A stretch of 61,337 bases of DNA, from positions 1 to 61,337 of the forward strand of contig NZ_NCII01000033.1 in the NCBI RefSeq assembly GCF_002256775.1. The letters are read 5' to 3'. Source of the DNA: Novosphingobium sp. 17-62-19. GTDB lineage: Bacteria > Pseudomonadota > Alphaproteobacteria > Sphingomonadales > Sphingomonadaceae. Shown in pieces: positions 2,984-61,312 of the stretch. The translations under genes were made by a program, and so were the position numbers. Below the pieces are notes generated by a model. It did not search any database, was not told where the DNA came from, and worked only from the letters and a program-made list of their open reading frames with translations. How positions within the stretch are numbered: position 1 is the first letter of the stretch; every line of letters starts with the position of its first letter.

Positions 2984-3163
2984 ATGGCCGTCCCCAAAAG
3001 AAAAACTTCGCCCTCACGCCGGGGTATGCGCCGCAGCCATGGCGCACTCAGCGTTGATGCATTCCATGAATGCTCAAACTGCGGTGAACTGAAGCGTCCG
3101 CACAATCTTTGCAACGCCTGCGGTCACTACAACGGTCGCGAAGTCATCGCCGTCGGGCTTTAA
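2984..3163 (+). CDS. rpmF: 50S ribosomal protein L32
   Basis: A 59-aa basic protein beginning [18 protein letters not shown], the universal L32 start. The two CxxC pairs of zinc-binding L32 ([18 protein letters not shown]) are intact. The length is normal. It assembles into the large ribosomal subunit. The order rpmF-plsX-fabH is conserved across proteobacteria and links translation with fatty-acid synthesis. The start is the ATG directly before the conserved AVPKRK; an upstream in-frame extension is not conserved-looking. Confidence 0.98.
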
Positions 3164-3189
3164 GCCTTAAATCGGGGGGGACTGAGGAC

Positions 3190-4272
3190 ATGAGCCTGCC
3201 GCGTATCGCCGTCGATGCGATGGGCGGCGATGAAGGCGTGCGTGTCATGGTTGAGGGTGCGGCACTTGCCCGCCGCCGTCATGACCGCTTCAAGTTCCTT
3301 CTCGTCGGTGACGAGGCCCGCATCAAGCAGGCTCTCGAAGCGCACCCGAACCTTCGAAGCGCGGCGGAGATCCTCCACGCGCCTGATGTTGTTTCGGGTG
3401 ACGAAAAGCCGACGCAGGCCCTGCGCCGCGCCAAGACCACGTCGATGGGCCTGGCGATCAATGCGGTGAAGCAGGGTGATGCCGGTGCAGCGGTTAGCGC
3501 GGGGAATACCGGTGCGCTGATGGCCATGGCCAAGCTTGCGCTGCGCACAATGCCCGGAATTGATCGCCCTGCGCTCTCTGCATTGCTGCCTACGCTGGGA
3601 GAGCATGACCTGATCATGCTCGATCTTGGCGCCAACACCGATTGCGATGCGCGTAACCTCGTGCAGTTCGCGATCATGGGTGCGGCCTATGCGCGCATTG
3701 TCAACGGGCTGGAATCGCCACGCGTGCGCCTTCTCAACATCGGCACCGAGGAATCCAAAGGCACCGATTCGTTGCGTGATGCGGCGAACCAGCTCAAGGC
3801 TTTGGCTGGTGACCTTGCGATGAGCTTCGACGGCTTCACCGAGGCTGACAAGCTTTCACGCGGGGATTGCGATGTCGTCGTGACCGACGGTTTTTCGGGC
3901 AACATCGCCCTCAAATCGATGGAAGGCGCCGCGCGCTTTGTTGCAGACTTGCTGCGCCGCAGCTTCTCCTCATCTCTGCGCTCGAAATTCGGCTTCCTGA
4001 TCTCGCGTCCGGCAACCGAATTGCTCAAGCATCATCTCGATCCAAACAACCATAACGGCGCAGTCTTCCTTGGCCTTAACGGCGTCGTGGTGAAAAGCCA
4101 TGGTAGTGCCACTGCGGTTGGCGTGGCCAATGCCGTGGCGGTTACCGCGCGCCTGCTGGAGGAAAACCTGACCGAGCGTATTCAAGCCGACCTTGCCCGC
4201 CTTGGCGCTGAAAGCATCCGCTCCACCGGTCGTGGCCGCAGTGCTGCTGTGTCCAATGAGGATGCGGCATGA
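3190..4272 (+). CDS. plsX: Phosphate acyltransferase PlsX
   Basis: PlsX converts acyl-ACP and phosphate to acyl-phosphate, the first step of the PlsX/Y route to phosphatidic acid. The 360-aa protein starts [13 protein letters not shown] and carries [18 protein letters not shown] and [16 protein letters not shown], all hallmarks of the family. It is a peripheral membrane enzyme. The start ATG at 3190 has a GAGGA-type binding site directly before it. It lies 26 bp after rpmF and overlaps fabH by ATGA (4269-4272), so the two are translationally coupled. Confidence 0.97.
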
Positions 4273-57790: not shown

Positions 57791-57960
57791 GCCCCTCCGT
57801 CAGCGCTGCGCGCTGCCACCTCTCCATTTGCACTGCGTGAAAATGAGGAGGAATTGTTGGAGTGGCATCAAATTGGCAGCACTTCCGCTTGATCCTCCCT
57901 GTTTTTCCGCAGGACAAACGGGGAGGTGGCATTCGCCGCCAAGGCGAATGACGGAGGGGC
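57791..57960. repeat. Long palindromic repeat, copy 1 (170 bp)
   Basis: It begins GCCCCTCCGTCAGCGCTGCG and ends ATGACGGAGGGGC, so its ends are inverted repeats of each other. The first 62 bases match copy 2 (58321 onward) with only two differences. The inner left arm (TGCCACCTCTCCATTTG) also pairs with the right arm near 57939-57950. A hairpin ATTCGCC/GGCGAAT lies near the right end. Its right end supplies a GGAGGGG ribosome-binding site for the DUF559 gene. Confidence 0.85.
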
Positions 57961-57963
57961 TTT

Positions 57964-58317
57964 TTGCCGAGGCTGAAGCATCAGCGCAACGTGGCCAGGG
58001 CACGGCAGTTGCGTGGGTCCATGACTTTGCCCGAAATTCTGTTGTGGCAGCGATTGCGCCGTTGTGAGGATGTGAAGTTTCGGCGGCAGCATCCGGTCGG
58101 GCCGTATGTGCTGGACTTCTACTGTGCAGCGGTGCGGGTTTGCATCGAGGTTGACGGGATTGTGCACGACATGGGCACGCGGCCTGCGCGTGACGCTGTG
58201 CGCGATGATTGGTTGGCTGGGCAGGGCGTTCGGGTGATGCGGATTGCTGCGGTCGAGGTTTTGCGAGATGTGGATGGGGTTGCTGCGGCGTTGGTGCGGA
58301 TTTGCGGAGGTGAGTGA
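57964..58317 (+). CDS. DUF559 endonuclease-like protein
   Basis: A 117-aa protein of the DUF559 family, related to Vsr-type very short patch repair nucleases (PD-(D/E)xK fold). Visible are LPEILLWQRLRRCEDVKFRRQHPVGPYVLDFYC, with Asp51, and VCIEVDGIVHDM, with Glu62 and Asp64. A typical C-terminal GVRVMRIAAVEVLRDVDGV follows. TTG at 57964 is preceded by GGAGGGG from the flanking repeat; GTG at 57991 is an alternative. It is bracketed by two copies of one repeat and may move or spread with it. The in vivo function of this family is not known. Confidence 0.85.
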   Translation: MPRLKHQRNVARARQLRGSMTLPEILLWQRLRRCEDVKFRRQHPVGPYVLDFYCAAVRVCIEVDGIVHDMGTRPARDAVRDDWLAGQGVRVMRIAAVEVLRDVDGVAAALVRICGGE

Positions 58318-58320
58318 ATA

Positions 58321-58467
58321 GCCCCTCCGTCAGCGCTGCGCGCTGCCACCTCCCCATTTGCACTGCGTGAAAATGGGGAGGAGTTCATTGGCCCCACCCG
58401 ATCCTCACCGTTTTTGCGAAGCACAAATGGGGAGGTGGCAGGCGCCGTAGGTGACTGACGGAGGGGC
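58321..58467. repeat. Long palindromic repeat, copy 2 (147 bp)
   Basis: It has the same 62-bp beginning as copy 1 and the same orientation, so copies 1 and 2 are direct repeats flanking the DUF559 gene. Its left arm pairs with its right arm over GCCCCTCCGTCAG and TGCCACCTCCCCATTTG, with unpaired spacers between. A second hairpin CCTCCCCATTT/AAATGGGGAGG (11 bp, perfect) lies in the left half. It begins 3 bp after the DUF559 stop. Confidence 0.85.
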
Positions 58468-58475
58468 TTGTTTCC

Positions 58476-59396
58476 TCAAGGCACGCGCTTGATCTGCCAT
58501 CCCCGTGCCATCATCAGGCGTTGCAGGCTGTCCGACCCAGCGAGGTGCGCAGCGCCCACGGCCACGAACGGCTTGGCGCCGCCTTTGAGCATCGCGTCCA
58601 GCTGGTCTGCCCACAGACGGTTGCGGGTGGTCAGCAAGGCGGTGTGGAGGCCGGGATCTGCGAGGAAGCCTTCGTTGGCTTCGCGCGCGATGCCAAGATC
58701 ATCGCCGCGCAGCCACATGGCGATCATCTGGGCTTCCTCGTCATTGTCGCTGGCGGCTTCGACGGTGACTTCCTGCAACAGGACTTTCTGTTCCCGCGGC
58801 GGGAGCGAATCGAACACCGCGAACTGGCTTTGGAGCGTTTCGAACCCGACAATGGGTTTGCCAGCGGCGAGGCGGCGCAGGGCGGGTTCGGATCCGCTTT
58901 CGGGATCGGACCCGGCCTTCTCTCCCGCAATGGCGGCCAGTTGCAGCGCCACGGCCCAGCTTTCGGTATCGACAAAATCGGCGTCGGTCAGGCCAAGCTT
59001 CTTGTAAACCTTCTTCAAATCGTCACGCATCTTTGGCGCGATGCGCTGCGATGGCGGCGGCAGGCCCGCGGTTCCAGCCAATTCTGCCAAGGCTTCCCCG
59101 GCCGAGGCCTGGTCAATGGGCTCGGCGATTTCAAGGACAAGGCGGTCTGACGCAGCCAGTGCATCGGTGATTGCAGGGCGCAACCACTGCGTCTTGGGCG
59201 GCAAGGCGTGCACAGTGCCAAACAGGTAGCCGCGCACGGTGCCGCCCTTGTCGGTGATTTGCCACAGCGCGACACGCCCTGATCCTGCTGGCGTGGTAAT
59301 TTCTTCGGCGGGTTTTTCACGGTTGAGCCACGTTATCCCCATGCCAAGCAGCAGGGCGGGGACGACAGCAAGGAGCAGGCGGCGGATCAGGGTCAT
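58476..59396 (-). CDS. TraB/GumN family protein 1
   Basis: A 306-aa protein with an N-terminal membrane anchor or signal (LLLAVVPALLLGMGITWL). The family motif YLFGTVHALPPKTQWL (GxxH) is near residue 60, and the C-terminal FVAVGAAHLAGSDSL carries the second conserved GxxH. TraB/GumN proteins resemble a metal-dependent peptidase-like fold, function unresolved. It is 35% to 45% similar by eye to the next gene, so the two arose by tandem duplication. Its start overlaps that gene's stop. Confidence 0.88.
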   Translation of the reverse strand: MTLIRRLLLAVVPALLLGMGITWLNREKPAEEITTPAGSGRVALWQITDKGGTVRGYLFGTVHALPPKTQWLRPAITDALAASDRLVLEIAEPIDQASAGEALAELAGTAGLPPPSQRIAPKMRDDLKKVYKKLGLTDADFVDTESWAVALQLAAIAGEKAGSDPESGSEPALRRLAAGKPIVGFETLQSQFAVFDSLPPREQKVLLQEVTVEAASDNDEEAQMIAMWLRGDDLGIAREANEGFLADPGLHTALLTTRNRLWADQLDAMLKGGAKPFVAVGAAHLAGSDSLQRLMMARGWQIKRVP

Positions 59397-60271
59397 TGCA
59401 CGCGCGCCGATTCAACGCCTTGGGCCTTCAGCGCATCCTGCACACTGTTCGGCCCGGCAAGGTGGCCTGCACCAACCGCGACGAACACCGTGCCCGGCTG
59501 CTGCAAGCGTTGGCGCGCCCACGTGGCCCAGTTGCGATTGCGCTGGTAGAGCAGGGTTTCGGCCAGTTCGGGATCGTCCATCTGCGCGTTGAGCAACTTG
59601 CCAAGGCCATCGGGATCGCCCGAACCCCATTCGTCGGTCATGGCGTTGATCAATCCGGCGCTCTTGTCGAAGTCCTTGACTGCGGCGTTCAGGAATTTGA
59701 GCTGAGCCTCTCGCGGGAGACCATCAAACAGGCCCAGCTGGTATTCGACCGTTTCCAACCCGCCGAGTTTCTTGCCCTTGGCCACCGCGGCCTTGCGCAG
59801 CACGGTCTCAACACCCTGCTCCTCGCCATAGCCTGCCAACGCATAGGGTATGACCGCCAGCGTGATTCCCGCCAACCATGGTTCGAGCGGATCGAGCGTT
59901 TCGGGCGGAATCTTCAGGCGGGCAAGCAGGGCTTCGTAGGCTGTGCGGTCAGCGTCGTTCATCAGCGAGCGCAGCGTTTCGCCCTTCAGCAGGCCAATGG
60001 CCATGACGGCCTTCTGCTGATCCGCATCGGACACGTCGGGGATTTCGGTGAGCAGTTCGGACGATTCATCCAGCGCGGCGGCAACCGGGCCATCGAGCCA
60101 GACCAGCCCCTTGGGCAGGGCGTGCACCGTGCCGAACAGGTAGATCGTGGTGTCCTCATCCGCCACTTTCCACAGCGCCGGTTTGAGCTGAGTCTGCGCC
60201 ATGGCTGGCGCGGTGAAGGCGCAGGCGGCAAGGGTGATGGCGGCGGTGAGGGTGCGGAAGGCTTTTCTCAT
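59393..60271 (-). CDS. TraB/GumN family protein 2
   Basis: A 292-aa paralogue of the preceding gene product, with a cleavable signal peptide (LTAAITLAACAFTAPAMA). It has IYLFGTVHALPKGLVWLDG, LGGLETVEYQLGLFDGLPREAQL and FVAVGAGHLAGPNSVQDAL, which match its neighbour in order and spacing. ATG at 60271 is chosen because it starts the signal peptide and AAGG lies upstream; the longer in-frame extension is antisense to glyQ. It is divergent from glyQ. Confidence 0.88.
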   Translation of the reverse strand: MRKAFRTLTAAITLAACAFTAPAMAQTQLKPALWKVADEDTTIYLFGTVHALPKGLVWLDGPVAAALDESSELLTEIPDVSDADQQKAVMAIGLLKGETLRSLMNDADRTAYEALLARLKIPPETLDPLEPWLAGITLAVIPYALAGYGEEQGVETVLRKAAVAKGKKLGGLETVEYQLGLFDGLPREAQLKFLNAAVKDFDKSAGLINAMTDEWGSGDPDGLGKLLNAQMDDPELAETLLYQRNRNWATWARQRLQQPGTVFVAVGAGHLAGPNSVQDALKAQGVESARVQ

Positions 60272-60391
60272 GCGCTGCCTTTTGCCCGCAAACGTCTTGC
60301 CATGGAATGAAGGAAATGTTGTCCATGTGTGGAGCGATCTCCCGTGATGCCGGTTGATTTGGCGCGTCCTATCGGCCAAAGCCCCGGCATT

Positions 60392-61312
60392 ATGGCCGAA
60401 CCCACGCAACAGCCTCTCAGCCTGCAGGACATGATCCTGCGCCTTCATGCCTTCTGGAGCGAGCAGGGCTGCCTGATCCTTCAGCCGTATGACATGCGCA
60501 TGGGCGCGGGCACGTTCCACACCGCCACCACGCTGCGCGCGCTTGGGCCAGAGCCGTGGAATGCGGCTTTCGTGCAGCCTTGCCGCCGCCCGACCGACGG
60601 TCGCTATGGCGAAAACCCGAACCGGCTGCAGCATTACTATCAGTATCAGGTGATCCTGAAGCCTTCGCCGGAAAACCTGCAGGAGCTTTATCTGCAATCG
60701 CTGGGCGTGATCGGCATTGATCCGCTGGTGCATGACATCCGCTTTGTCGAGGACGACTGGGAATCGCCGACGCTGGGCGCGTGGGGCCTTGGCTGGGAAG
60801 TGTGGTGCGATGGGATGGAAGTCACCCAGTTCACCTATTTCCAGCAGATGGGCGGCTTCGATTGCAAGCCGGTTGCGGGCGAGCTGACCTATGGGTTGGA
60901 GCGTCTGGCGATGTATATTCAGGGTGTCGACAACGTCTATGACCTCGCCTTCAACAATCCCAATAGTGCTTTGGGGGGCGTCACTTACGGCGAGGTGTTT
61001 CTCGAAAACGAGAAGCAGATGTCGAAGTGGAACTTCGAGGTTGCCGATACCGACAGCCTGTTCGAAGGCTTCCGTCGGGCCGAAGCCGAATGCGTGCGGT
61101 CGCTCGAAGCGGGCGTGCCGATTGCCGCTTATGAGCAGGCGATTGAGGCCAGCCACCTGTTCAACCTGTTGCAAGCGCGCGGCGTGATTTCGGTGCAGGA
61201 ACGCGCCAGCTACATGGGCCGGGTGCGTGATCTCGCGCGCGGATCGTGCGAGGCGCACATGGAAAAGAACGCCGATCAGTGGGCGGCCAAGTACCCGGAG
61301 TGGAGCAAGTGA
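60392..61312 (+). CDS. glyQ: Glycyl-tRNA synthetase alpha subunit
   Basis: A 306-aa subunit of the tetrameric bacterial Gly[50 protein letters not shown] is the family start, and [29 protein letters not shown] a conserved active-site segment. ATG at 60392 gives a normal length. Upstream starts at GTG 60344 and ATG 60347 have GGAG 9-12 bases before them, so a 15-residue longer form is possible. It overlaps glyS by GTGA. Confidence 0.95.

Follow-up and report, generated by a model that had tools for sequence, protein, structure and literature searches.

An open reading frame between two palindromic doublets

The stretch of DNA analysed here, hereafter the window, comprises the 61,337 nucleotides of contig NZ_NCII01000033.1 of Novosphingobium sp. 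17-62-19. It includes a 117-aa open reading frame (ORF) of the DUF559 family which is located between two palindromic elements, at 3 bp from each of them. The elements span positions 57791-57960 (170 bp) and 58321-58467 (147 bp), their initial 62 bp match at 60 of 62 positions, and their ends correspond to GCCCCTCCGTCA and TGACGGAGGGGC. An original prediction, made from the letters alone, had described the two copies with their common start, inverted ends and 3-bp distances to a 117-aa DUF559 gene, and all of this was found in the sequence. It had also considered each copy as one long palindrome. Two flanking palindromic copies are indeed present, but each of them is a doublet of two hairpin-plus-tail units with the tails pointing outwards (Table 1), so that in the gene-adjacent units the tail points towards the DUF559 gene.

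In each unit a 33-nt hairpin, CCTCCCC..GGGGAGG, carries a TTT/AAA step, a G placed opposite an A and a short inner stem; it is joined to a tail that includes a second small hairpin and has GGAGGGG at its end. As the prediction had noted, this GGAGGGG sequence closes copy 1, 4 nt upstream of the TTG start codon of the DUF559 gene, and it may plausibly act as its ribosome-binding site. When a 32-mer of the repeat was searched with up to 3 mismatches, two matches were obtained, both exact, and none in 100 shuffles. Folding z-scores of units 1 to 4 were -2.6, -5.4, -5.5 and -2.7; for two of the units, 3 of 200 shuffles fold equally well. Taking into account the shuffles and the z-scores, a chance origin of the repeats is unlikely. 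Among 24 copies of the window-type hairpin the G is constant and the opposed A is kept in at least 90%, and compensatory changes are seen in the inner stem, a part not constrained by the search pattern. The element gave no match reaching the gathering score in Rfam, and only weak matches in PADLOC and PHROGs.

The ORF product was assigned by Pfam to PF04480 (DUF559; E 1.2e-27, 96.3 bits against a curated cut-off of 20.6), with weaker matches to nuclease-type families. In an alignment of 76 rows, residues E24, W28, Q42, F52, E62, G65, H68 and D77 are invariant, and D51 and D64 are conserved in at least 90%. The fold predicted for the protein matches those of solved members, namely Vsr and the homing endonuclease I-Bth0305I, the latter of the EDxHD family. 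The gene is under purifying selection: dN/dS ranged from 0.04 to 0.21 in eight of nine gene pairs, the ninth not being computable. At another locus (L167, 5723-6193) the DUF559 frame can extend into both repeats, giving repeat-encoded peptides (e.g. ADGPPPRAGED) at the protein ends.

Table 1. Features of the DUF559 element, in window coordinates.
Feature	Position	Strand	Remarks
Unit 1, left doublet	57791..57852	-	Tail 57791-57818 with small second hairpin; hairpin 57819-57851; tail outwards
Unit 2, left doublet (left terminal repeat)	57893..57960	+	Hairpin 57894-57926; tail 57927-57960 towards gene, with a CGTC-REP-like hairpin
GGAGGGG, plausible ribosome-binding site in repeat tail	57953..57959	+	Sequence; putative role
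DUF559 (PF04480) gene, Vsr-like nuclease, 117 aa, TTG start	57964..58317	+	Pfam, alignment, predicted fold
Unit 3 (right terminal repeat)	58321..58382	-	Tail towards gene; hairpin 58349-58381
Unit 4	58402..58467	+	Hairpin 58403-58435; tail outwards

Palindromes beside DUF559 genes in other bacteria

To score a locus as bracketed, we took the best local match, inverted or direct, between the stretches left and right of the DUF559 domain, with a threshold of 20. With 350-bp flanks, 30 of 33 loci of the family sample were bracketed (two more loci were too short). In 40 further proteobacterial regions, hand-picked among the strongest matches listed, bracketing was found in 28; it was seen for only 3 of 304 ORFs from these stretches and for 4 of 1138 random windows. 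A third set comprised named loci of several phyla (the 80 best of 577 relatives, four of them skipped because of short flanks; L244 and L083, the latter from the phylum set, share a contig), and here 49 of 76 DUF559 genes and 7 of 504 control ORFs were bracketed. The arrangement read by the prediction at a single locus is hence found far beyond one strain. DUF559 genes are strongly enriched between paired palindromes, so neither of the outcomes named there as refuting (no enrichment beside the repeat, or a pairing confined to one strain) was obtained. According to record titles, bracketed loci include ones of Pseudomonadota, Desulfuromonadales, Desulfobulbaceae and Binatia, and one each of Kapabacteria, Planctomycetes and Gastranaerophilales. 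Neither of the two Verrucomicrobia loci nor that of Stahlbacteria was bracketed, and one locus each of Nitrospirae (19) and Cyanobacteria (17) fell narrowly below the threshold; at least one locus (L320) passes with a shared stretch that seems unlike a hairpin.

A second criterion, a perfect C-rich/G-rich stem of at least 8 within 250 bp, gave stems on both sides for 24/40 and 55/76 DUF559 loci of these two sets, against 2/327 and 3/536 ORFs, and on a single side for 13/40 and 16/76 loci, against 22/327 and 28/536 ORFs. Since palindromes are shared between genomes, the mismatched-flank control of the family sample is contaminated (inverted 95% point 25, maximum 120); the controls relied on are therefore the ORFs and random windows of the same stretches, together with the stem criterion against ORFs. 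In a plasmid collection of which nine loci were tested (a tenth, L240, stands outside), passing scores were obtained for Deinococcus (47; highest control 11), Sinorhizobium (65; 12), Novosphingobium (45; 14) and Neisseria (73; 30). The E. coli, Klebsiella, Synechocystis and Photobacterium loci scored below threshold, yet such palindromes are seen nearby by eye.

The repeat often has the form CCCTCTCCC-n-GGGAGAGGG and then a tail, for instance TTGGGGTGAGGGG, which by eye could pair with the same C-rich arm and give alternative folds. The highest plasmid-collection score given above belongs to Neisseria gonorrhoeae (L232, about 3001-3306), where the DUF559 stretch is found between direct repeats with CCCTCTCCC-type palindromes; this stretch may be NGO0050. 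DUF559 genes lacking a bracket of this kind form a sizeable minority. The recurrence of the pairing in many bacteria suggests that DUF559 genes are partners, and possibly spreaders, of widespread palindromic repeats.

Cognate repeats, gene-less units and site histories

The repeats are specific to the lineage of the protein. Across genomes, repeat similarity follows DUF559 protein identity (rho 0.41, 0 of 500 permutations) in a set of 80 of 124 assembled loci, namely those with inverted repeats, the 44 without being dropped and the window kept by hand; the left repeat was compared with the right repeat of the other locus, which excludes common host flanks. For 15 genes having both a same-genome paralogue and a closer protein elsewhere, it was the closer protein whose repeat was more alike in 11 cases, with one tie and three cases in favour of the paralogue. 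DUF559 and palindrome numbers are also positively correlated (rho 0.65; reversed-pattern control 0.02), and ten or more palindromes were counted in 28 of 68 genomes with a DUF559 match and in 0 of 12 without one. These values refer to 80 of 99 family genomes, hand-chosen so that all 12 without a match were kept and 19 with a match omitted. In the E. coli control, the PF04480 search did not pick up ycjD although RefSeq annotates it as DUF559; zero-count genomes may accordingly hold missed genes, as may searches for Y1_Tnp, the REP (repetitive extragenic palindromic) transposase family.

The source genome (3.8 Mb, 149 contigs) contains five DUF559 matches. Four of them reach the bracketing threshold, with repeats that by eye differ from gene to gene; beside the fifth, also by eye, one flank holds a palindrome doublet and the opposite flank only a weak hairpin. 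Gene-less units are dispersed around this genome. The window hairpin pattern occurs 17 times, the reversed pattern being absent, and 12 other listed places were read by eye: seven are doublets with hairpins outside and tails face to face, one is a doublet with tails outwards and four are single units. In the seven tail-to-tail doublets the tails are 6-13 nt apart, and each combines one TGACGG-type with one GGTGG-type tail. Hairpins similar to those of locus L003 (CCTCCCCGGCACGGGGAGG) form seven pairs with 105-117 bp spacing, by eye too tight to hold a gene. Among 12 neighbouring pairs taken by hand from the matches listed for five genomes of the genus, spacing was 99-105 bp in seven and 43, 46, 52, 152 and 451 bp in the rest, the 451-bp pair corresponding to the two sides of a DUF559 gene. 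All four genus genomes with a DUF559 gene carrying the window-type hairpin have that hairpin, as do 10 of 55 others (Fisher 0.002; the Fisher tests ignore relatedness of genomes, the gene's own repeats are included in the counts and 30 of 54 DUF559 matches were inspected).

We then considered sites in relatives, named after the genes beside them; the gene names ispE, pntA and ETF-QO are assigned from the sequences. Sites were classed by eye, and 30 of the 52 ispE and 30 of the 53 pntA2 matches were read. Upstream of ispE, six loci are occupied by gene and repeats (L171, L172, L173, L183, L190, L198), five have a doublet without gene (L181, L186, L187, L192, L200), three a lone hairpin (L182, L185, L194), 15 no such unit, and one was not anchored. 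Occupied, gene-less doublet, single-hairpin and repeat-free states are thus all found at one site within one genus. The pntA1/pntA2 site was occupied in seven loci (one decayed), had a gap of 3-17 bp in 11, and was otherwise arranged or unsure in 12. Gap lengths overshoot for L177 and L186, whose contigs start early, and L203, L210, L228 and L230 were too doubtful to be counted. At the ispE site of L172 the DUF559 match starts at residue 38 and looks frameshifted, pointing to a resident copy in decay.

In a tree of 23 DUF559 rows, copies cluster by site (7 and 6 rows, with support of 100/99 for each cluster; 11 of 20 inner branches are weak), and the ispE cluster includes L166, which comes from another place. 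At both sites examined the gene is therefore inherited in place, apart from a single copy of one lineage, which lies elsewhere. With respect to the minimal mobile unit proposed in the prediction, the dispersal of gene-less units agrees with it, but the residence of the gene does not.

The comparison of empty and filled sites, also proposed there, was made at these sites of relatives rather than at the window's own site. The latter was not found occupied in the nine relative loci read, and its empty counterpart is unusable since gene order differs in these nine loci, which have the neighbouring gene. Beyond the element, the window contains on the minus strand (58476-61258) two adjacent reading frames, both presumably TraB/GumN-like. 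An occupied/free pair was looked for at the Sinorhizobium and Azospirillum plasmid loci and none was found. In E. coli K-12, ycjD (L242, 2484-2837), annotated as DUF559, lies between sapF and fabI; by eye, a perfect palindrome with arms of about 17 bp is found just upstream. The sapF-ycjD-fabI stretch is present at 80% or more in 3363 of 5426 genomes, and in E. coli ST131 and O157:H7 efflux genes are found beside fabI instead of ycjD. The efflux genes next to fabI are the eef operon (PMC12817139). This alternation was not informative as a test of mobility.

A proposed partner nuclease for palindromic repeats, and its relation to known systems

We consider, with a probability of about 0.6, that DUF559 genes of the window kind encode nucleases which serve as dedicated partners to palindromic repeats of a REP/REPIN-like class, in which a Vsr-type enzyme replaces the RAYT. 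On both sides of the gene would stand its cognate unit, made up of a C-rich/G-rich hairpin and a G-rich tail pointing to the gene, and gene-less single units and doublets would be dispersed, non-autonomous copies of that unit. Most likely, the Vsr-like nuclease would recognise the extruded hairpin with its tail and nick there, and nicking would lead, at a low rate, to copying or movement of doublets in trans, the nuclease gene itself being mostly inherited in place. Such a scheme would resemble that of RAYTs and REPINs with an unrelated enzyme.

Several observations weigh against this reading. Neither cleavage nor movement was observed, and we infer recognition, cutting and spreading by the nuclease. 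No target duplication was recognised by eye and no insertion polymorphism between close strains was seen, the sites compared being from different species only. The threshold is reached by only 12 of the 28 top-scoring proteobacterial loci examined with 400-bp flanks and, in the plasmid collection, by 4 of 9 (Azospirillum being also below it), so part of the DUF559 family lives without such repeats. Orphan copies exist, as in the 10 genus genomes mentioned above no DUF559 gene of the window-type hairpin was seen. Two of five hairpin-covariation measures (double-change pairs and further pair types) were not above shuffles. Last, VsrA of Caulobacter, a DUF559 protein, has been proposed for very short patch (VSP)-type repair (PMC12907096).

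A homing-type element, in which cleavage of gene-less doublets or of intergenic sites by the nuclease is followed by repair that copies gene and flanks, as with free-standing homing endonucleases, the dispersed doublets being targets or leftovers, is unlikely, though the best placed of the alternatives. At pntA1/pntA2, 11 of 30 loci have the short gap and no palindrome, so a pre-existing doublet is not required, and the grouping of DUF559 copies by site also speaks against homing. Slightly more doubtful is a host function, with DUF559 as a VSP-like repair nuclease and palindromes gathering around it only because the intergenic location tolerates hairpins or benefits from them as terminators. 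The VsrA work, the purifying selection and the residence at fixed sites favour it, but control genes of the same stretches are hardly ever bracketed, the repeats match the protein lineage, and palindrome number climbs with DUF559 number.

That DUF559 is cargo of palindromic elements moved by another transposase appears improbable. REPs elsewhere are linked to RAYTs, and TIRYTs exist (PMC3733652), but the PF01797 (Y1_Tnp) search, other transposase families not being searched, gave no match in the source genome nor in 67 of the 80 family genomes. Matches were present in 13, and none of seven Y1 genes tested, from seven of these 13 genomes, was bracketed. Least probable of all is that the nuclease processes palindromes extruding at replication and limits them, palindrome-rich genomes needing it, since this would agree with the co-occurrence across the 80 genomes but leaves the cognate terminal repeats at the gene itself unexplained.

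If the partner-nuclease reading holds, the enzymes with which REP-like repeat populations arose are of at least two unrelated kinds, and such repeats can be driven by a Vsr/homing-type nuclease or be what it depends on. A large protein family without an assigned function would gain a concrete, testable role, and common unexplained bacterial palindromes a candidate enzyme. Whether the case is general stands for us at even odds, namely that these are undescribed selfish palindromic elements spanning phyla, with a Vsr-like nuclease in place of the RAYT, and that DUF559 proteins, relatives of YcjD of E. coli and of NGO0050 of the gonococcus, spread many of the C-rich/G-rich palindromes of bacterial genomes, which have the form CCCTCTCCC...GGGAGAGGG and in many cases a GGGGTGAGGG tail. 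In the literature searched, which covered few subscription papers, no report tying DUF559 to such repeats was found; in the available text of a 2025 REP survey (PMC12306157) the words 'endonuclease', 'RAYT' and 'transposase' are all absent.

In REP/REPIN and RAYT systems the gene is vertically inherited and, where several repeat families exist, repeat-specific, and repeats are commoner where the gene is present (PMC3733652, PMC8049555). The window element is similar in having a small gene flanked by palindromes that recur dispersed as non-autonomous inverted doublets, in vertical inheritance at fixed sites, seen here at two sites of relatives, and in a repeat type that is specific to its gene and commoner alongside it. 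It differs, as had been predicted, in the enzyme, which is Vsr-like PF04480 and no HUH/Y1 tyrosine transposase, and its hairpins, in the units read by eye, have no GTAG foot. TIRtrons or TIRYTs are Y1 transposases with long terminal inverted repeats (PMC3733652). Likewise, the terminal repeats here are dispersed families, some of them self-complementary, and GGGGTGAG, present in many tails of the named loci, would fit the TIRYT motif GGGGWSAS as given in that text; the enzyme family is again different.

For the CGTC-tagged REPs of alphaproteobacteria no dedicated transposase has been described (Di Nocera 2013, PMC3733652). As defined in the text of PMC3733652, they have a CGTC tag, an 8-9 bp stem starting with AT and a CCA tail, and a tail unit of the window (57925-57953, minus strand) matches a relaxed form of this. 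The unit is shared by the window-like loci L162, L163, L164 and L237 and by the source genome's own doublets L008, L015 and L021. Among 181 DUF559 loci of four broad sets, the window itself is the only one with such a unit within 500 bp of the gene, so the missing transposase of CGTC REPs is not supplied here and we do not claim that DUF559 is that enzyme. Finally, the predicted fold is shared with Vsr and I-Bth0305I, but the gene of the window sits in a palindrome bracket, unlike those of Vsr and Caulobacter VsrA, and is intergenic and palindrome-bracketed, unlike that of I-Bth0305I.
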